From contig NZ_JNYZ01000030.1 of NCBI RefSeq assembly GCF_000717335.1, positions 46,515 through 110,514 of the forward strand: 64,000 nt of DNA, written 5' to 3'. The DNA is from Amycolatopsis jejuensis. Its GTDB lineage: Bacteria; Actinomycetota; Actinomycetes; Mycobacteriales; Pseudonocardiaceae. The notes under the pieces are model-generated. The model was not told the origin of the DNA, did no database searches, and was given only the letters and a program-made list of their open reading frames with translations. Shown here piece after piece: positions 5,752 through 33,436 of this stretch. Numbering within the stretch: position 1 is the first letter of the stretch; each line of letters opens with the position of its first letter. The position numbers were made by a program, and so were the translations under genes.

Positions 5752-6673
5752 GGTAGGCGGGCTTTTCAGGGGGACGTTCGCGCGGTTGCCCGCGCTCGGG
5801 GCCTCGGCTTCTCGCGGAGGGTTGAGTTGCCGGGGGTTAGGCGGGGTGGGGTCGTTCGCCGGGGGCGGGCTGGGGTTTCCGTGCCGTGCATCGGCGCACG
5901 GGCGGTCGGCAGAACGCATCCGGTGTCCGGGACGCTCGTCGGCGGACAAGCCATTCGTGGGGTGCACGGGCAGTCGGTGCAGTTCGCGGGCGCGCGGACG
6001 GTTAAAGCAGCTCGCTAGGGCACGGGCAGCGGATGCAGCCCGCCGACGCCCGAACGGACGGGGTCGGCCGGAGCAGCGCGGGTGGTCTGCGCAGCTCACC
6101 GACGGGCTCGGAGTGGCTCCCGACCGGCGACCGCGAGGGCAGTCCGTGCCACTCACCAACGCGCTGGCAACTGCACACAACCCGCTGCCGCGCGGGCGGT
6201 CTGCGCAGCTCACCCACAGGCTCGAAGTTGGTCCCGGCCCGCGACCGCGAGGGCAGTCCGTGCCACTCACCAACGCGCTGGCACTGCACACAACCCGCAG
6301 CCAAGCGGATGGTCCACGGCTCACCAACGCCCTGGCAACTGCGCACAACCCGCAACGGCGCGAATGTGTCCGCACAGCTCACCGACACGCACGCACGCCG
6401 CACAAAGCGCCAACTCGACCCCGCCCCACCCAGCCGCGACGAACCACCACCGGTGACCCATCAGCAACCCCCATTGACCCAGAGAAACCGCTATTCGCCG
6501 GCCCGGAGGCAGCCGTCGTCCCCCTGCTGCCTCCGGGCCCGGCTGCGGCGGACCGGCGGGGCGACACCCCCAGCGTCGCCCCGGGCGGTGCTACGCCTGC
6601 TGCATTGTCCGGGTCGGGCGAGTTAGCCACCAGCTAACCGGCCCGGGCACAGTCTTGTGGAGCGGCCGGGCGA
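5752..6673. other. Long intergenic region, mostly repeat
   Basis: Over 900 bases without a convincing gene. Long open frames on both strands are low-complexity (Arg/Pro/Ala) and shift relative to the repeat period, as expected of non-coding GC-rich sequence. The second half holds the tandem array listed separately; the last part is the promoter region of the EspR-like gene. Confidence 0.65.
6084..6360. repeat. Imperfect tandem array, unit about 114 bp, 2.5 copies
   Basis: Copies begin at 6084, 6198 and (truncated) 6311 with GGTCTGCGCAGCTCACC or a close variant. Each full unit also carries CGCGAGGGCAGTCCGTGCC and CACCAACGCGCTGGCA. The period is roughly constant, copies differ by scattered substitutions and small indels, and there is no intervening unique spacer. 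Confidence 0.7.
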
Positions 6674-6717
6674 TTGTCAACTCTCCGCTAATCTGAGATA
6701 GTTGCGTTAGCTGAGAG
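6674..6717 (+). promoter_or_regulatory. Promoter of the EspR-like/ImmA operon with overlapping dyad
   Basis: TTGTCA (6674-6679) and GATAGT (6697-6702) are separated by 17 bases. An 11-bp inverted repeat with one mismatch, CTCTCCGCTAA (6681-6691) and TTAGCTGAGAG (6707-6717), overlaps the promoter. The arrangement suggests repression, perhaps autoregulation by the gene at 6749 (inference). Confidence 0.5.
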
Positions 6718-6748
6718 CAATTAGTGAACAGGGGAGGGGCGGAGCAGC

Positions 6749-7198
6749 ATGTCCGAAGACACCGAGGCCGCAGATGCCCGGCCCACCCTGGCCGCCAGAC
6801 TCGACGACCTCTTCCGCACCGTGCGTCCGCAGGGGCGGCATTGGACGAACGCCGAGGTTGCGGCCGAGTTGAAGCGGGTGTCTCCGGAGCTGAAGGTCGG
6901 CGGGGTGTACCTCTCGCAGCTGCGCACCGGCAAGCGCACCAACCCGTCGCAGGAACTCCTCGCCGCGCTGGCGAAGTTCTTCGGGGTCTCGGTCGCCTAC
7001 TTCTTCGACGACGAGGTCGCCGGGTCCGTGTTGTCCGAGCTGGCCGCCGTGGAGGCGATGCGGCAGGCCGGGGTGCGCGCGGTCGCGATGCGTGCCGCCG
7101 GGATGCGCGAGGAGAACCTGCAGGCCATCACCACGATCATGGACCAGTACCGCAAGATGCAGGGCCTTCCGCCGGTCACCGACGAAGCGGCCCAGTGA
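6749..7198 (+). CDS. EspR-like helix-turn-helix DNA-binding protein
   Basis: 149 residues. It parallels mycobacterial EspR along its length: FAARL-type start (LAARLDDLFRTV), the winged helical HTH with YLSQLRTGKRTNPS, then FFGVSVAYFFDDE and a C-terminal dimerisation helix (MRQAGVRAVAMRAAGM). EspR is a nucleoid-associated regulator of ESX-1 genes; this homologue need not share that target. It overlaps the ImmA/IrrE gene by 4 bases (GTGA), a pairing typical of regulator plus protease modules in which the peptidase cleaves the repressor. Confidence 0.8.
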   Translation: MSEDTEAADARPTLAARLDDLFRTVRPQGRHWTNAEVAAELKRVSPELKVGGVYLSQLRTGKRTNPSQELLAALAKFFGVSVAYFFDDEVAGSVLSELAAVEAMRQAGVRAVAMRAAGMREENLQAITTIMDQYRKMQGLPPVTDEAAQ

Positions 7199-7737
7199 GC
7201 GGCACCCCGCCCGAAGCCCCGCAGCGGCGCGAGCAGCTGCGGCGGATGCGCGACGAGGGGGCCCGCCGGATCGCCGACCTCGGCCTCCCCGCGAAGTACG
7301 ACCTGGCCACACTGTGCGAGCGCCTCGGCGAGATCCGCGAACGGCCGATCACCCTCGTCCCGCTGCCCATGCCGGCGTCGCACCCGTGCGGCATGTGGGT
7401 GGCCGCACGGGGCGAAGACCTGATCTTCTTCGACGCCAACACCACCGGGGCGCACCAGGAGCACATCATCTTGCACGAGCTCGGTCACATCATCTGCTGT
7501 CATCGCGGCTCGGGCGTCCTGGACGACGAGAGCGCCCGCTCGCTCTTCCCCAACCTCGACCCGGACATCGTCCGCGACATGCTGATGCGTGCCACCTACG
7601 ACGACGTCCAGGAACAGGAAGCGGAAATCATCGCCTTCCTGCTGTCGGAACGCATGGGCACCCCGGCCGAGCCGATCGCCGACAAGCCCGCCGCCGGGGA
7701 GAAGCCCCTCGACCGGATCGAGCGCACCCTCCTCTGA
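7195..7737 (+). CDS. ImmA/IrrE family metallo-endopeptidase
   Basis: 180 residues with the zinc motif HELGH (in IILHELGHIICC) and a downstream acidic segment EQEAEIIAFLL that supplies the third ligand in this family. ImmA/IrrE peptidases cut HTH regulators in response to stress or signals, so the overlapping EspR-like protein is the obvious partner (family knowledge plus context). GTG start inside the stop of the previous gene. Its 3' end converges on the KS-ACP-AOS gene, leaving 87 bases between. Confidence 0.9.
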   Translation: MSGTPPEAPQRREQLRRMRDEGARRIADLGLPAKYDLATLCERLGEIRERPITLVPLPMPASHPCGMWVAARGEDLIFFDANTTGAHQEHIILHELGHIICCHRGSGVLDDESARSLFPNLDPDIVRDMLMRATYDDVQEQEAEIIAFLLSERMGTPAEPIADKPAAGEKPLDRIERTLL

Positions 7738-7824: not shown

Positions 7825-10800
7825 CTACCGCAGCGCCGCCAGTTCGGCCGCCAGCGTTGACACCGCGTACTGCAGCTGGTCCTCGCGGTGTTCGCTGGTC
7901 AGGAAGAACCGCAAGCGGGTCTGCTCCTCGTCCACCGCCGGGTAAAGGATGGGGTCGACCACGATGCCGCGTTCGTACAGCGCCGTCGCCAGCCGCAGCG
8001 TCGTGGTGGAGTCGCCGACCACGCACGGGACGATCGGGGTGCCGCCGGACGAGCCCGTGGGGAGCTCGGCTTCGCGAGCCAGCTTCAAGAACAGGTCCGA
8101 GTTTTCCCGCAGCCGGACCAACCGCTGTGGCTCCGCACGCAAAATTTCCAATGCAGAAAGAGAAGCAGCCGCGTTTGCCGGGGTGATTCCCACACTGTAC
8201 ACGAAACCTGGCAGCGAGTACCGAAGCCAGCGCACAGTCCGCGCCGACCCCGCGAGGTAGCCACCGCATCCGGCGAGCGACTTCGACAACGTACCCATCC
8301 ACAGGTCGACCCCCGAGCGGTCGACGCCGAAGTGGTCCCCGATTCCGGCGCCACGCGGGCCGATCGTGCCGATGCTGTGTGCCTCGTCGACCATCAGCAG
8401 CGCGCCGTACCGCCGTTTGAGCTCGATCAGCTGCGGCAGGTCGGCGAGGTCACCGTCCATGCTGTACACGCCTTCGACCACGATCAGCACCCGGCGGAAC
8501 CGCGACCGCGTGCGGCGAAGCACGTCCTCCAGCCGCGTCATGTCGTTGTGCGGGAACGGTTGCCGCGTCGCGCCGGACAGCGCGCAGCCTTGCAGGATAC
8601 TGTCGTGCGCCAGTGAGTCGTGCAGGATGAGGTCGTCCGGACCGACCAGGTGGCCGATCGCCCCGACGTTCGTCGCGTGCCCGCTCACCAGCACCAAACT
8701 GTCTTCGGTACCCAGGAATCCGGCGATCTCCGTCTCCAGCTCGCGGGAAAGATCGCGGTCGCCGGCGAGCAGGCGGCTGCCGGAAACCGAAGTGCCGTAA
8801 CGGTCGACAGCCTCGTGCACCGCCGCCGTCACCGCCGGATGCCCGGCCAGGCCGAGGTAGTTATAGCTGGAGAAGGAAAGGTACTGCCGTCCGGCGACCG
8901 ACGTGGTGGCGTCGAGCCGTCCCTGGTGCTTGCGGAAGTACGGGTTCGGCACGCCGAGCCGGTCGAACTCGCTCAGCCGGGATTCGATCGCGGCTGCCTC
9001 CGGGAACTCCTCGATCGCGACCGTTGCAGAGTCCCAGGTCGGCGCAGCGGCAAGCGCTTGCGCCGGCACCGGTACCGGGCCGAGCAGCCCGGCCACCGCG
9101 CCGACGGTGAGCGCGTCCTCCTGCTCGATCGTCAGCGGCAAGCCCGGAAGACGTTTGCGCAGACGGGCTTCCAGTTCGGTGAGCATCAGCGAATCGAAAC
9201 CGAGGTCGTCCACGAGCAGGTGCCCGGGCTGTAGCTCGTCGACCGGGAACGCCGTGGTGCGGGCGATCTCCTCCAGGACGACGGCCAGCGCGTCACCAGC
9301 AGGCGTCGGCTCGGCGGCCGGAGCAAGCTTCGCGTCGTCGACCACCCAGTGGCGGCGCGGGCTGAGCGGGCTCGGCGGCAGCGTGCAGCGGGGCAGCCCG
9401 TCCGCAACCGGCCGCAGCCCGGCACCGGTCACCGCACGCGGGGCCAGCTCGGCCGGGACCCCGTCCGCGACCTGCTCTTCCCCAGGCGCGACAACCCCCG
9501 CGTACGCACCAGGTACCAGCTCACCGATCTGCCCGGACTCCAGCGCGACCGAAGCGGCGACGAGCTTGCTCACGGCGTCGGCAATGTCGTCCGCGGCCAC
9601 CGCGAGCCGCTCCGGGAACAGCGTGCGCCGGGCGAGAGTGCCGGCAACGGCGGCGAGCGGTGGATTCTCCCGGACGAGCGTCTCGGCGACCTCGCGAGCG
9701 TGCCGCGCCAGCCCGGCTCGATCCCGCGCGGTGAGCACGAGCAGCCGCGGCTCTTCCCCGCCAGCCAGCTCGCTCGCTGCCTCTTCCAGGACCACATGGA
9801 CATTCGAGCCACCGAATCCGAACGCGCTCACCCCGGCGCGGCGCGGACCTTCGCTCTCCCACGGCGTGACCGTACCCGCCACCCGCAGCCCCGCGTCGCC
9901 GAGCGCAAGGTGTGCTGCCTGCTCGAAATCCGGCTGCGGCAGGATCTGTCCCTTGTGGACGGCCAAAATGGACTTGATCAGCCCGGCCATTCCCGCGGTA
10001 CCCAGCGAATGCCCGACCACCGCCTTGGCCGCCCCCAGGTACGCGGGCTCGGCGGCGTCGCGGCGCAGCTCGCCAAGCGCGTTGATCTCGACGTCGTCGC
10101 CGACCGACGTGGCCGTGCCGTGTGCCTCCAGGTAACCGACCGATCCTGGCTCCACCCCGGCATCCGCGTACGCGCGGCGCAGCGCCATCAGCTGTCCGGC
10201 TTCCTGCGGCATCATGCCGCCTTTCACCGTGCCGTCATTGGACAATCCGACGCCGCGGATCACCGCATACACCCGATCGCCCGCGGCCACGGCGTCCGCA
10301 AGCGGGCGCAGCACCAGTACGCCGGCGCCCTCGCCGAGCACGAAACCGTCGGCGCGGCGGTCGAACGGGCGGCATTCTCCGGCCCGGGAAATCGCGCCGA
10401 TCCGGCACAATCCCACGAAAAGATCGGGTGTGAGAATCAGTTGCGCACCACCGGCAACCGCGATTTTGCACCGCCCCGCGCGCAACGCGAAGACTGCATT
10501 GGCCACCGCGGTGAGACCGCCGGAGCACGCCGAATCCAGCGCGTAACTCTCGCCGTGCAAATCGAAAACATTGCTGATCGAACTCGGTCCCATGTTGAGC
10601 AGCAACCCGGCCATTGCGGTCGCGTGCAACCCGCTGACCGCCGACGCCGTTTCGGCGAGCGCCGGGTCACCCGAGCGCCCGAACTCGCCGCCGGCCAGCT
10701 GCCGCAGCCGGATGTGCAGGGTGCTCATCTCGCGGTAGCCGCTGTCGCTGAGCGACATGATCACCGACGTGTCGTCGCGGTCGAATCCGGTGGATTCCCA

Positions 10801-11154
10801 GCCTGCGTCCTGCAAGGCCTCCCGGGTGAGGTCGACCAACAGGCGATGCTGCGGGTCGAGCGATTTCGCCCGCCGCGGCGGGATCCCGTAGTGCGTCGCG
10901 TCGAAGTCGCCGACGTCGTCCAGCAACGCCATCCGGTCGGAGTACGCCGCCGAACCGTCCCGGAAGTCCTCGCTGAAGAACGCGTCCCGGCGCCACCGGG
11001 AGTCAGGGACGCGGCGAAACTGCGGTTTCGGTTCGCTCAGCAGATCCCAGTACTCGTTGACGTTGCGGGCGCCCGGAAAACGGCACCCCATTCCGACGAC
11101 CGCGATGTCCTGGCCATTTCCGGATTTCCCCCACGCAGATCCTGCAGACGCCAT
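7825..11154 (-). CDS. KS-ACP-alpha-oxoamine synthase fusion protein
   Basis: 1109 residues. Ketosynthase at about 14-460 with Cys210 (DSACSG), His345 (EAHGT) and His382 (GHSLG). Residues 470-600 look like a shortened post-KS linker; no acyltransferase, ketoreductase or thioesterase is visible. Carrier domain at about 620-695 with Ser655 in LGFDSL. Alpha-oxoamine synthase (AONS/SPT/CqsA family) at about 725-1109 with DEAHS (923-927) and PLP Lys958 in GTLSKSLAG. Expected chemistry: extend an acyl chain on the carrier, then decarboxylatively condense it with an amino acid to release an alpha-aminoketone; the acyltransferase must act in trans. RBS GAGGAAG. The SDR gene 108 bases upstream is on the same strand. 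Confidence 0.92.
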   Translation of the reverse strand: MASAGSAWGKSGNGQDIAVVGMGCRFPGARNVNEYWDLLSEPKPQFRRVPDSRWRRDAFFSEDFRDGSAAYSDRMALLDDVGDFDATHYGIPPRRAKSLDPQHRLLVDLTREALQDAGWESTGFDRDDTSVIMSLSDSGYREMSTLHIRLRQLAGGEFGRSGDPALAETASAVSGLHATAMAGLLLNMGPSSISNVFDLHGESYALDSACSGGLTAVANAVFALRAGRCKIAVAGGAQLILTPDLFVGLCRIGAISRAGECRPFDRRADGFVLGEGAGVLVLRPLADAVAAGDRVYAVIRGVGLSNDGTVKGGMMPQEAGQLMALRRAYADAGVEPGSVGYLEAHGTATSVGDDVEINALGELRRDAAEPAYLGAAKAVVGHSLGTAGMAGLIKSILAVHKGQILPQPDFEQAAHLALGDAGLRVAGTVTPWESEGPRRAGVSAFGFGGSNVHVVLEEAASELAGGEEPRLLVLTARDRAGLARHAREVAETLVRENPPLAAVAGTLARRTLFPERLAVAADDIADAVSKLVAASVALESGQIGELVPGAYAGVVAPGEEQVADGVPAELAPRAVTGAGLRPVADGLPRCTLPPSPLSPRRHWVVDDAKLAPAAEPTPAGDALAVVLEEIARTTAFPVDELQPGHLLVDDLGFDSLMLTELEARLRKRLPGLPLTIEQEDALTVGAVAGLLGPVPVPAQALAAAPTWDSATVAIEEFPEAAAIESRLSEFDRLGVPNPYFRKHQGRLDATTSVAGRQYLSFSSYNYLGLAGHPAVTAAVHEAVDRYGTSVSGSRLLAGDRDLSRELETEIAGFLGTEDSLVLVSGHATNVGAIGHLVGPDDLILHDSLAHDSILQGCALSGATRQPFPHNDMTRLEDVLRRTRSRFRRVLIVVEGVYSMDGDLADLPQLIELKRRYGALLMVDEAHSIGTIGPRGAGIGDHFGVDRSGVDLWMGTLSKSLAGCGGYLAGSARTVRWLRYSLPGFVYSVGITPANAAASLSALEILRAEPQRLVRLRENSDLFLKLAREAELPTGSSGGTPIVPCVVGDSTTTLRLATALYERGIVVDPILYPAVDEEQTRLRFFLTSEHREDQLQYAVSTLAAELAALR

Positions 11155-11262
11155 CGCATGACTTCCTCGCGCCGATCCCCACTTCGGTCGGCACCGAGAT
11201 TGCCGGGTCGCGCCGGGATTTTCAAGCGGATTCGGAAAATTGCCGGAAAATGGGACCGGAAA

Positions 11263-12204
11263 TCAACGCTCGGTAGCCGCACGCTCACGCCACCACGTCA
11301 CCGTTTCGGCGGCCTGGTCCTTCTCCGGTGTCGGCCGCAAGCCCAGAAGATGTTGTGCGGCTTGGGAATCGACCACGAACGGGCGGTCGAACTGGTACCG
11401 GACCTCGGCCAGCTCCCGCAGCAACGGCGAAACGACTGCACCCACGCGCAGTAACACCGGAGAAAGGCGTTGCACACCCACTGGTGCCACTCCAGCCGCT
11501 TCACACAACAACGCCACCATCACGCGCGCGGACCGCGGTTCCCCGGTCGGCACATGCCACGCTTTGCCCCACGCCTTTTCTTCTTTCGCGACCGCGACGA
11601 GCGTGCGCGCGACATCCGGCAGGTACGTCCAGCTGTGCGGCGCATCCGGATCACCCATCACCTGGACCTTGCGTCCCTTCAGCACCAGCGGCACCACGCG
11701 GGAAGCGAGGTGCCCGCCATCGGTCACCCCGGGTCCGAAGAAGTCGGACGCCCGCACTTCCACCGCGCGGATCCGGCCCTCGGCGTGCAGCGTGTGCAGC
11801 TGATCCCACAGCCGCGCGCGCATCCGGCCCTTCGGACCGGTGGCTGCCAGCGGCAGGTTCTCGGTGAGCGGACCGTCGACCGGACCGTAGCCGTACAGGT
11901 TCCCGAGCGACACGAGCAGCGCGCCGGTGGCCTCGGCGGTGGTACAGATCGAGTCCGCGAGCGGGGGCCAGTCGTCGGCCCATTGGTGGTACGGCGGGCT
12001 CGCGCAGCTGTAGATCGCCGTCGCGCCCTTGGCCGCCGAGGTGAGCGCAGCATGGTCGGCGGCGTCGAGCACCACGTGCTCCAGGCCCGGCTCGCTCTCG
12101 CGCGGCGAGCGGCCGATCACCCGCACCCGCTCCCCTTGCCGGGCGAGCAGCCGCGCGGTCGCCGCCCCCGCCGGTCCGAACCCGATGACCACGTGAAGAC
12201 TCAT
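11263..12204 (-). CDS. Atypical NAD(P)-dependent epimerase/dehydratase-family SDR
   Basis: 313 residues. The N-terminal Rossmann motif is G8-F-G10-P-A-G13, with Arg32 after strand 2 favouring NADPH. The sequence continues with NLYGYGP, PKGRMRA and GDPDAPHSWTYLPDVART, as in the extended/atypical SDR group. The classical Tyr-x3-Lys pair is not evident, so reductase activity is not assured. It is first in an apparent operon with the KS-ACP-AOS gene, which suggests tailoring of its product (inference). A TAGGGT -10 lies just before the ATG, making leaderless initiation likely. Confidence 0.85.
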   Translation of the reverse strand: MSLHVVIGFGPAGAATARLLARQGERVRVIGRSPRESEPGLEHVVLDAADHAALTSAAKGATAIYSCASPPYHQWADDWPPLADSICTTAEATGALLVSLGNLYGYGPVDGPLTENLPLAATGPKGRMRARLWDQLHTLHAEGRIRAVEVRASDFFGPGVTDGGHLASRVVPLVLKGRKVQVMGDPDAPHSWTYLPDVARTLVAVAKEEKAWGKAWHVPTGEPRSARVMVALLCEAAGVAPVGVQRLSPVLLRVGAVVSPLLRELAEVRYQFDRPFVVDSQAAQHLLGLRPTPEKDQAAETVTWWRERAATER

Positions 12205-12211
12205 GGCCGAC

Positions 12212-12446
12212 ACCCTAGCGAGCATCCGGATTCGTGACTTCCGGTTCACCGTCCGGCCTGCCGGACCGCGGTCGGGGCGGGCCCCCGACACCCTCGGTCG
12301 ACCCGGTGTTAACCCAGGCCAGGACCCGTTTTCCGGCTCTAGTTCCGCCGCCTGCGGTCGTGTAGGGTCGCCGATCATGGACCGTTCCGCCGAGGAGGCC
12401 TATGCGCTCGCCTGACCTCGCCTGGCATACCCGGGGACCGGAGTGA
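12212..12446. promoter_or_regulatory. Divergent promoter region with two possible leader ORFs
   Basis: TAGGGT occurs as a -10 candidate on each strand: 12212-12217 (minus, 7 bases before the SDR ATG) and 12363-12368 (plus). On the plus strand a 12-codon ORF starts at 12377, and a 14-codon ORF at 12402 with GAGGAGG upstream ends inside the GTG of the DUF6545 gene. Such overlap suggests translational coupling. No strong -35 elements are seen. Confidence 0.35.
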
Positions 12447-13567
12447 ACGCACTGAAGATCGCGCTCTTCGCGCTGTCGGCGATCTCGTCGTACGCCGCGT
12501 TGCTGTACAAGCTGTTCTCGATGCGGCGGTCGTGGCGCGACCCGGCGTACATCGCGCTGATGACCACATTGATCCTGCAGTGCATCACGTTCACGCTCGG
12601 CGCGCTCTCGCTCAGCATCACCTCGGTCCTGGGGGTGCCGAACCTCGCGATCCTGATCCTGCACCTCGCGGCCGTCGCGTACTGCATCAGCGCGCAGATC
12701 CTGTTGCTGCTGTGGGCGAATGCACTCGACGAAATCCGCTCGACCGTGCGCGCGTGGATCATGTCCGGCGCAGCGCTGTACGCGGTGCTCATCGTGCTTT
12801 TCTTCATCGGCAACCGTCCGGGCACCCCGGCGACCGCGTTCGGGACCGGCAGCAGCAACCCGGTGATCCTCGCGTACCTGCTGCTGTTCATCGTTTCGCA
12901 GGCGGTGCCATGCGTCACGATCTACCTGCAGTGCCTGCCGTACGCGCGCAGCACGTCGAAACCATGGCTGCGCCGTACGTTGCGTACGCTCGCCGTCGGC
13001 GCAGTAGTGCTCTTTCTGTACTGCGCCGCGCGCACAGTGAACATTCTCAGCCCACTGTTGGGCTTCCGGATGGGCTCGTGGGCGATCGCGGCGTCGTTGT
13101 TCAGCGCGCTGGGCATCGTGATCGTGTCGTTCGGGCTCACCATGCCGTCGTGGGGCGAGCACGTTTCGAGTGTCGCGAGGTGGTTCCGCAACTACAGCTC
13201 CTACCGCGCGCTGTACCCGCTGTGGCATTCGCTGTACGAGTCTTCGCCGGGCATCGCGCTCGAACCGCCGACTGCCGGTGAGCGACGCTTGTCAGACCTG
13301 CACTACCGCCTGCACCGCCGCGTGATCGAGATCCGCGACGGCTGGCGCGCGTTGCGGCCGTACATGGATCGCGCCGAGACGAACGGCGCCGACCAGGCGG
13401 TGGCGGAGGCCACGAAGATCAAACAGGCGCTGCAGGCGAAGAACTCCGGCCTGACCCCGGCGCAGAACCACGATCCCGGCGCCTTCGACGACTACGACGC
13501 CAAGACGTTCGCCGCCGAAGTCGCCTGGCTGACGCAGGTTTCGGCCGCCTACGAGAGGCTCGGCTGA
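12443..13567 (+). CDS. DUF6545 / MAB_1171c-family putative transporter
   Basis: 374 residues. The first 230 hold about seven membrane helices (for example residues 5-20, 35-60, 65-90, 103-120, 134-155, 178-200, 208-230), followed by a cytoplasmic, charged C-terminal domain with MPSWGEHV and a helical ARWFRNYSSYRALYPLWHSL stretch. This matches the actinobacterial MAB_1171c family, whose transport role is only putative. In my recollection such genes often sit near XRE/ImmA pairs, as here. GTG start overlaps a 14-codon leader ORF. Its 3' end overlaps the convergent thioredoxin gene by 19 bases. Confidence 0.8.
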   Translation: MNALKIALFALSAISSYAALLYKLFSMRRSWRDPAYIALMTTLILQCITFTLGALSLSITSVLGVPNLAILILHLAAVAYCISAQILLLLWANALDEIRSTVRAWIMSGAALYAVLIVLFFIGNRPGTPATAFGTGSSNPVILAYLLLFIVSQAVPCVTIYLQCLPYARSTSKPWLRRTLRTLAVGAVVLFLYCAARTVNILSPLLGFRMGSWAIAASLFSALGIVIVSFGLTMPSWGEHVSSVARWFRNYSSYRALYPLWHSLYESSPGIALEPPTAGERRLSDLHYRLHRRVIEIRDGWRALRPYMDRAETNGADQAVAEATKIKQALQAKNSGLTPAQNHDPGAFDDYDAKTFAAEVAWLTQVSAAYERLG

Positions 13568-32463: not shown

Positions 32464-33436
32464 CGGGGTGCGGTCAGGACGGCTTCGGCGGGCGAGATGC
32501 CTCGCGGTGGCCAATGGAGACGAGCCTGGGGAACGGACTGACTCAGCCCGGTGGGTAAGCAGATTGGGCTCCGTAGGCAAGCCGTGCCAATATGACAAGG
32601 TGGTGTGGCGGTTTCGAGAGCGGGAACAGCGAATTAGGCAGGCGGCAGACACGCCCTACATGGCGAACACTGCCAACTAGCGCAAGACAGAAACGATCTT
32701 CATCGAGCAGAACCAATCAGACAAGCAGCAGACACGCCCCTACGCGGCGAACACGGCAGTTCGTTGCGGAGACGGCCGATCAAGCGACAGAGGGGTTTTC
32801 GCCAGCAGATGCGGCTCATCAGGTGGGCGGCGGAATGCGTATTGGCAGGCGGGGATGGTCAGGCAGGTGGAGCGATGCAGCAGGTTCGCTGACAGGTGAG
32901 GTCAATCGGGCGGACAGCAGCAGTCTTCGGCCGATGGCAGAGTCTCGGCAGCTAAAAGCAACGGCGGTTTCCGCGGGCGGATATCGCCAATCGGCGACCA
33001 GCGACGGCATCTGCGCGTGGAGGCGCTGCTGACGCAGACAGTGCTGAATCGGCAGGCAGCGCCCAATCTGCCGAACAGCACTGAAACGGCAAGGAGACGA
33101 GAGGTGATCTTGCGCAGATAAGTGTCTGCGTCGCACGCAAGCAGTAGCGCGAATTCGTGCGGGAAATTTGTAATTATTCGCAGGATGGTCAACCCGGAGG
33201 TCAGATGGAGAGAATCCGATTGGTGAGCAGAACCTTTGTGCAGCAACGGAATACCGCGGCGAATCAGGACCGACGATGAGCAGAAAAGGGCATCGCAGGT
33301 AAAGGAGCGCCGCGGGAAAAGGATGCAACGAGAAGAAGGAAAACCATCAGAAAAGCCCCGCAAGAAGGAAAGGCGCCTCCAGAAGAAAGGGGGCGCCCCA
33401 CCACCTGTTCCCGTGGCTAAACCCGCACTCCGGAAA
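32464..33436. other. Gene-free, AT-richer region downstream of lsr2
   Basis: About 970 bases with no plausible gene on either strand and clearly lower GC than the surroundings. A 35-base word beginning GGCGGCAGACACGCC at 32647 recurs in variant form near 32725. The most AT-rich part is near 33150-33190. Palindromic GGGGCGCCCC at about 33390 may belong to the lsr2 terminator. Xenogeneic or decayed sequence is possible. Confidence 0.55.

Follow-up and report, generated by a model that had tools for sequence, protein, structure and literature searches.

An acyltransferase-less ketosynthase-carrier-α-oxoamine synthase protein of Amycolatopsis jejuensis and its conserved cassette of seven-transmembrane, XRE and IrrE-like genes

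What might be made by a single actinobacterial protein in which a ketosynthase (KS) is joined to an acyl carrier protein (ACP) domain and an α-oxoamine synthase (AOS), and what might be the role of the genes beside it? The question is raised by a stretch of 64,000 nucleotides from Amycolatopsis jejuensis (assembly GCF_000717335.1, contig NZ_JNYZ01000030.1, positions 46,515 to 110,514), here called the window, which encodes a 1109-residue KS-ACP-AOS protein without an acyltransferase (AT). Its gene lies close to those of a seven-transmembrane (7TM) protein, an XRE-type regulator, an IrrE-like peptidase and a protein like the short-chain dehydrogenases/reductases (SDR), here called EPI. The width of the enzyme family and this fixed neighbourhood go beyond the first-pass annotation of the window, and the neighbourhood is the most informative feature of the locus. 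The preferred reading, with a rough probability of 45%, is that the AT-less polyketide synthase (PKS) with its AOS makes a small diffusible metabolite which is read by the linked 7TM protein, in an autoinducer or hormone-like circuit. The coordinates of the features are collected in Table 1.

The open reading frame (ORF) of the synthase is intact on the minus strand, from 11154 down to 7825, and the plus-strand reading gives three stops; a ribosome-site-like GAGGAAG precedes the ATG. The single protein described in the first-pass annotation, where no strand was given, is therefore real. Pfam analysis placed the N- and C-terminal KS domains at residues 16-288 and 296-410, KAsynt_C_assoc at 417-505, the PP-binding domain at 625-689 and Aminotran_1_2 at 758-1100. 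No AT, ketoreductase (KR), dehydratase (DH), enoylreductase (ER) or thioesterase family was found in the protein by Pfam at an E-value of 0.001, and the annotated absence of acyltransferase, reductase and thioesterase was thus borne out. The synthase has the feature of a trans-AT module, namely a condensing KS with the C/H/H residues and no cis AT, and its closest solved KS in the PDB is 7zma (460 bits), which we take to be a trans-AT bimodule. AT was also absent among the 20 neighbour ORFs scanned with Pfam, in a scan that did not search for FabD. All 25 NCBIfam models shown (of 31 matches) scored below their own cut-offs, and no curated name suits the synthase for this reason; the best AOS model, and the one nearest its cut-off, was bioF (351 of 426 bits), whereas the model of serine palmitoyltransferase (SPT) reached 331 bits.

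The protein search scored 7990 candidates, of which 2534 had an E-value ≤0.001, far above chance. Among the best 120 of these 2534 homologues, the lengths were 1071-1372 residues, the best local alignment spanned 87-100% of the query in 117 (54, 54 and 63% in the other three), and the named hosts included Amycolatopsis, Streptomyces, Kitasatospora and Sciscionella. The window synthase was 84-85% identical to the named orthologues. In 60 related genomes, nine matches were found at 1e-100 including the own genome, with 8/35 among the other genus members and 0/24 outside the genus. A class-wide sample gave matches at 1e-150 in 11/394 genomes, own included, several of them of a longer or split kind; in a further genus (label g46, taken as Streptomyces) 19/150 genomes matched at the same threshold. 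The AT-less KS-ACP-AOS protein is a widespread actinobacterial family and not a one-off.

Residue conservation was assessed in an alignment of these 120 homologues (window protein included) and of 14 KS-AOS relatives in which the KS and carrier stand further apart. The synthase contains C210, H345, K377 and H382 in the KS, S655 within LGFDSL of the carrier, and K958 within GTLSK together with H850, D923, H926, R1080 and R1082 in the AOS. The AOS residues comprise the pyridoxal phosphate (PLP) lysine, the stacking His, the PLP-binding Asp and His, and conserved Arg residues. C210, H345, K377, H382, S655, K958, H850, D923 and H926 were invariant in 120/120 homologues and 14/14 longer-spaced relatives; R1080 and R1082 were kept in 119/120 (one gap) and 14/14. 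The three annotated signatures (C/H/H, LGFDSL and GTLSK) are thus both present and conserved, and an inactive or decaying synthase gene can be ruled out. The carrier was weak by Pfam, with PF00550 precomputed for only 2/120 homologues, yet its serine is invariant. PF00698 (AT) was precomputed for 0/120 of the listed homologues. A looser form of the post-AT-type linker pattern was present at the same region in 116/120 homologues and in 4/14 longer-spaced relatives; such a linker before the carrier fits an AT that was lost or is supplied in trans. The first-pass annotation had named two findings that would speak against it, which were loss of the KS or PLP residues and close similarity to a characterised enzyme; the alignment shows the residues intact, and no NCBIfam model shown reaches its cut-off, with RedL not compared by sequence.

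The neighbourhood was analysed by gene-neighbour clustering and tblastn at 24 AT-less loci with distinct sequences, namely the window, eight of its own genus (L077-L084), four named Amycolatopsis (L031, L032, L033 and L035) and 11 from g46, ten of them from the g46 search (L085, L096 and L097-L104) and one (L086) from genome G388 of the class-wide sample. L034 and L036, copies of L082 and L078, were excluded and also have the full cassette; the match in genome G518 was split over contigs and its locus was left out. The 7TM, XRE and IrrE genes each occurred in 24/24 loci and EPI in 21/24, and a TetR gene was nearby in 10/11 g46 loci as well as in L083 and L084. None of the 19 other AOS loci (L087-L095 and L105-L114) matched 7TM, XRE, IrrE or EPI at 1e-6, and one of them had a distant TetR; 17 of these stretches were 20 kb long, L089 (at a contig end) and L113 being shorter. 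The linkage of 7TM, XRE and IrrE to the AT-less synthase is a fixed cassette. The product may be a chemical signal, because the synthase gene adjoins the same sensor, switch and protease genes in the relatives analysed. The best-match identities of the 11 g46 loci to the window were 77-84% for XRE, 66-74% for IrrE, 66-71% for KS, 65-71% for AOS and 48-58% for 7TM, and 63-67% for EPI in ten loci; XRE is more conserved between the genera than KS and AOS.

The 7TM protein had no solved relative by sequence search and no kinase family match. Its structure model (mean predicted local distance difference test score 84.6, predicted template modelling score 0.67) comprises seven long helices, and the C-terminal domain is also helical. 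In the phylogenetic tree, the 24 linked 7TM proteins formed one clade (100/100) against 39 unlinked ones, which requires one change vs 19.5 with shuffled labels; the tree-building program flagged long branches within the unlinked set.

The XRE regulator is closest to EspR among solved structures, and if GTG at 7195 is the start of the IrrE gene, the two genes overlap by 4 nt. Both HELGH (HExxH) and QEQEAE (with the downstream Glu) were invariant in 24 IrrE rows. CapH/CapP, ImmR/ImmA and DdrO/IrrE are repressor-peptidase pairs in which the peptidase relieves repression. The window genes resemble them in that an IrrE/M78-like gene stands immediately 3' of an XRE gene whose product weakly matches the PADLOC CapH repressor model (6.8e-8); they differ in that the XRE is nearest to EspR and a 7TM gene is linked at all 24 loci. 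By this analogy, the IrrE-like peptidase would relieve repression by the EspR-like XRE; in the proposed circuit, the 7TM protein would sense the synthase product. A near-palindromic operator pattern, TTAGCTGNCAGCTAA, was matched 61 times with up to 3 mismatches (plus strand, 24 loci); 57 of these matches lay just upstream of XRE, whereas one first-order shuffle of each locus gave 2. In the window (both strands, 3 mismatches) there were 3 matches vs 0.37 expected, and at ≤2 mismatches the pattern occurred at a single place in the 10.1 Mb genome (6623-6637), against 12 places with the pattern reversed. Since the XRE promoters were the source of the pattern, the locus counts are partly by construction, whereas the genome uniqueness is not. 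An operator common to the regulator and the synthase was looked for and not found.

Phylogenetic analysis of the AOS domain used 37 rows, with 17 of the 24 AT-less loci and without the nearest stand-alone AOS paralogue of the own genome (L006). The 17 AT-less domains formed one group (100/99), and 15 rows of the KS-AT-ACP-AOS kind formed another once ungrouped rows were set aside; their AT was shown by Pfam in 2/15 and inferred from spacing in the rest, and in L088 the KS and AOS are encoded by separate genes. A larger PKS-AOS group of 34 rows (100/99) holds both kinds and two stand-alone PKS-linked AOS, whereas Kbl and BioF from E. coli and a genome paralogue fall outside. Membership of the BioF, Kbl or ALAS families was ruled out, because none of the curated models shown reached its cut-off and Kbl and BioF branch separately in the tree. 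The actinobacterial KS-AT-ACP-AOS proteins are sister enzymes (KS about 35-52% and AOS 55-67% identical, catalytic residues kept in 14/14), which differ in holding an AT and in having the 7TM-XRE-IrrE genes at 0/19 loci. The two stand-alone AOS are plasmid-borne (Paraburkholderia and Pseudomonas), are 53 and 50% identical to the window AOS, and both adjoin type I PKS genes. The closest solved relative of the AOS is the SPT structure 3a2b (247 bits vs 220 for a Kbl), with which it shares the GSR signature around R794, though ASR is found there in 90/120 listed homologues. Serine might be a first guess for the amino acid because of the SPT relative, the GSR signature and the kinship with PKS-linked AOS. 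This is a weak guess from sequence, and glycine is also possible; alanine would be favoured because the bioF score exceeds the SPT score.

An AT-less single-module PKS with its own AOS for offloading is proposed. Malonyl would be loaded on the carrier by an AT in trans, probably FabD, and the KS would accept an acyl starter and add one or more C2 units. The AOS would then condense the β-ketoacyl-ACP with a small amino acid, with loss of CO2. From a KS without a reductive domain followed by an AOS, a 1-amino-2,4-dione would be expected, which would close to a 3-pyrrolinone or hydroxypyrrole with RedL and PigJ/PigH as models. EPI, which lies upstream of the synthase on the same strand, may modify the cyclised product.

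RedL of the undecylprodiginine pathway (Streptomyces coelicolor) recruits and loads its fatty acid itself, by adenylation and first carrier domains. Like the window protein, it unites the KS, carrier and oxoamine synthase in a single chain in the KS-carrier-AOS order; the window protein, however, begins at the KS, without the N-terminal adenylation domain or loading carrier. PigJ/PigH and RedX/RedN of prodigiosin bipyrrole formation also combine a KS with a carrier-AOS, and the PigJ model matches the window KS with 151 bits, against its cut-off of 900; PigH has two carriers. PigJ and PigH are two proteins, whereas the window protein is one fused protein. According to PMC12654105 and PMC11188435, RedL joins a β-ketoacyl thioester with glycine to 4-keto-2-undecylpyrroline, which RedK then reduces and dehydrates, and PigJ/PigH use malonyl extension and serine release to give a hydroxypyrrole/hydroxybipyrrole. 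A Streptomyces griseoviridis protein is given as CP-CP-PLP2 in PMC3870968. RedL uses glycine, whereas the amino acid of the window enzyme may differ, and the likeness is by description, the RedL sequence not being compared. RedK was likewise compared with EPI by description; the window EPI is SDR-like but, by reading, lacks the YxxxK motif, which weakens a RedK-like reductase role. Chain extension followed by release as an α-aminoketone, as first annotated, may thus be expected by analogy with RedL, PigJ/PigH and SgaB (see below).

A known signal synthase offers a further comparison. CqsA is an AOS that makes an α-aminoketone, has neither KS nor carrier, and is encoded beside a membrane receptor gene; the receptor, CqsS, is a histidine kinase. 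The CAI-1 synthase structures match the window AOS, but with 111 bits vs 247 for SPT, and the autoinducer-synthase model gave 175.5 on the window protein vs a cut-off of 428. Moreover, in place of CqsS the window cassette has a 7TM-DUF6545 protein, which matches no kinase family, an XRE and a peptidase. Membership of the CqsA/CqsS system was rejected, with neither a CqsA-family synthase nor a sensor histidine kinase found; working like CqsA/CqsS is possible by analogy.

Several observations weigh against the signal circuit. The MAB_1171c family of the 7TM protein is common, being found in 36/41 g46 genomes, often in multiple copies. At 41 other sensor places (40 in g46 and the second copy of the own genome), 7TM was found at 39, IrrE at 35, XRE at 22, EPI at 1, KS at 1 (a separate gene) and AOS at 0. 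Because related sensor genes stand without AOS at these places, the unit may be a general regulator; the sensor genes form a module of general use, of which the AOS cassette is one stable application. EPI is missing at 3/24 loci (L081, L084 and L102), and the AOS of L084 groups with the g46 rows whereas its 7TM groups with Amycolatopsis. The operator repeats were not found before EPI or the synthase but solely before XRE; XRE is thus likely a regulator of itself, and it is not seen as the regulator of the enzyme. The third window match of TTAGCTGNCAGCTAA lies at 32885, away from XRE (3 mismatches). The IrrE protein scored 16.7 bits with PF06114, below the cut-off of 22 bits, and had no solved relative by sequence search. 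To these may be added the YxxxK motif absent from EPI and the bioF model outscoring the SPT models (351 vs 331 bits), which weakens serine.

Almost as probable as the signal circuit is a reading in which the locus makes an ordinary specialised metabolite and regulates its pathway. The product would be an alkyl-pyrrolinone, an alkylpyrrole or a pyrazine precursor, active as an antibiotic or in some other way; the 7TM-XRE-IrrE set would act as pathway regulator or in self-protection, with no cell-cell signalling. The precedents of RedL and PigJ/PigH apply equally to such a product, biosynthetic genes usually have a cluster-bound regulator, and both the sensor genes at the 41 places without AOS and the TetR genes near most g46 loci, L083 and L084 are consistent with it. 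However, beyond the cassette no neighbour cluster was common to most of the 11 g46 loci with a rough gene-finding method (c18, an ABC-ATPase-like cluster, occurs in four), and XRE is better conserved between the genera than the enzyme. Among the products first proposed, which were a lipid, a signal or a pyrazine precursor, the neighbourhood favours the signal over the other two without proving it; nothing points to a pyrazine precursor, which is a less likely but possible product.

A sphingoid-base-like lipid synthase is an improbable alternative, in which a long acyl chain would be extended once, the AOS would add serine to give a 3-ketosphinganine-like lipid, and the 7TM protein would sense the membrane lipid state. 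It would agree with SPT as the nearest solved structure of the AOS and with the 50-53% identity to the stand-alone AOS beside type I PKS genes. The SgaA/SgaB system of Pseudomonas fluorescens sphingolipids also has a PKS-linked AOS, compared here by description with the SgaB sequence not aligned; SPT activity of SgaB on long acyl-CoAs was measured, according to PMC12134224. There SgaA is a separate iterative PKS that builds the chain, a point against the lipid alternative, and SgaB is a separate AOS, with a sphinganine as the product. Moreover, without KR, DH or ER in the protein the β-keto group would stay beside the new ketone and favour cyclisation, and the neighbours that Pfam was run on included no family suggestive of ceramide synthesis. 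A switch for stress or defence, like CapH/CapP or IrrE/DdrO, with the synthase product as response effector and not an intercellular signal, is very improbable: the CapH match and the intact IrrE motifs suit it, and such repressor-peptidase pairs respond to damage in other systems, but the other four cassette proteins match no PADLOC model at an E-value of 0.01 and the synthase, with the operator before XRE only, is not visibly under the switch. An anti-phage system was rejected, as the XRE alone matches a PADLOC model.

If the signal circuit is taken to its most specific form, the locus would encode a new actinobacterial communication system, with a pyrrolinone or aminoketone autoinducer and a cognate 7TM-DUF6545 receptor acting via IrrE on an EspR-like repressor with its own operator. 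This full combination is unlikely, at least as a whole; if it were true, the other members of the large 7TM-XRE-IrrE family might serve as receptors for further small molecules. Many drugs come from Streptomyces and Amycolatopsis, and few chemical signals are known from these genera. The compact synthase and the membrane sensor linked to it, which occur in a number of species that allows comparison, offer a definite candidate for a new class of signal. The linkage might also provide a first function for the MAB_1171c/DUF6545 family, for which the NCBIfam name is merely 'putative transporter'. The fused enzyme could serve as a small, complete aminoketone-forming module for biocatalysis. In the open PMC literature (most subscription journals and all bioRxiv preprints lie outside it), no title or abstract start named this domain order with this cassette, and no paper combined MAB_1171c or DUF6545 with Streptomyces.

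Table 1. Positions of the synthase, its domains and the cassette features in the window.
Feature	Position	Strand	Basis or remark
AT-less KS-ACP-AOS protein, 1109 aa	7825..11154	-	ORF, Pfam, catalytic residues, orthologues
Ketosynthase N and C domains, residues 16-410	9925..11109	-	Pfam
KS catalytic codons	C210 10525-10527; H345 10120-10122; K377 10024-10026; H382 10009-10011	-	
Post-AT-type linker motif LPPSPLSPRRHW, residues 592-603, between KS flank and carrier	9346..9381	-	pattern match
Carrier (ACP) domain, residues 625-689; phosphopantetheine serine S655 at 9190-9192	9088..9282	-	PP-binding, E 1.3e-5
α-Oxoamine synthase domain, residues 758-1100; PLP Lys958 at 8281-8283	7855..8883	-	Pfam, structure match, alignment
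SDR/epimerase-like gene EPI	11263..12204	-	PF01370, E 2.5e-13; start set by orthologues, ORF extends to 12378
7TM membrane protein, MAB_1171c family, DUF6545 C-terminal domain	12443..13567	+	NF042915, 336.7 bits; PF20182
EspR-like XRE regulator	6749..7198	+	HTH_3; EspR structures, E 1.5e-23; 24/24 linked loci
IrrE/M78-type metallopeptidase-like protein	7195..7737	+	HELGH and QEQEAE motifs; candidate GTG start
Three operator-like repeats before XRE	6623..6721	+	6623-6637 TTAGCCACCAGCTAA; 6677-6691 TCAACTCTCCGCTAA; 6707-6721 TTAGCTGAGAGCAAT

Some minor observations concern the cassette genes. The MAB_1171c family occurs twice in the own genome. The second copy (G000:C31:41905-43411; L120, about 9863-12043) is a 7TM-IrrE-XRE set with no AOS in the 20 kb fetched; this set adjoins an epimerase-like gene (26%) and, by reading, the gene of a large membrane protein. 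At the g46 locus L134, EPI (72%, 11891-12829) stands beside a 7TM of the unlinked type, IrrE and XRE, and the 19 kb analysed there contain no KS-ACP-AOS. EPI may go with the sensor and not with the enzyme. Directly before the EPI start (about 12205-12225) is a GCTAG(G/T)GTG-like stretch, conserved in most Amycolatopsis and g46 loci shown; it is -10-box-like and might indicate a leaderless transcript. In L084, which is of the Amycolatopsis genus and without EPI, the synthase may have been replaced, given the conflict between the synthase and 7TM ancestries.

Other observations concern the synthase genes. In L034/L082 (A. echigonensis) the synthase match ends near residue 965 of 1109, which suggests a frame break or a divergent C-terminus. 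The own genome also contains a very large modular type I PKS region (G000:C6, about 180000-282000), where many KS domains give secondary KS matches. The longer PKS-AOS genes (L095, L107, L109, L112 and others) have their own recurring neighbours, clusters c15, c16, c17 and c22. For example, the neighbours of L095 include, by reading, genes of an MMPL transporter, a Ser/Thr kinase, a PAS-phosphatase-like protein and a phosphopantetheinyl transferase-like protein; on a plasmid of S. anthocyanicus, too, an MMPL gene is annotated as a neighbour.

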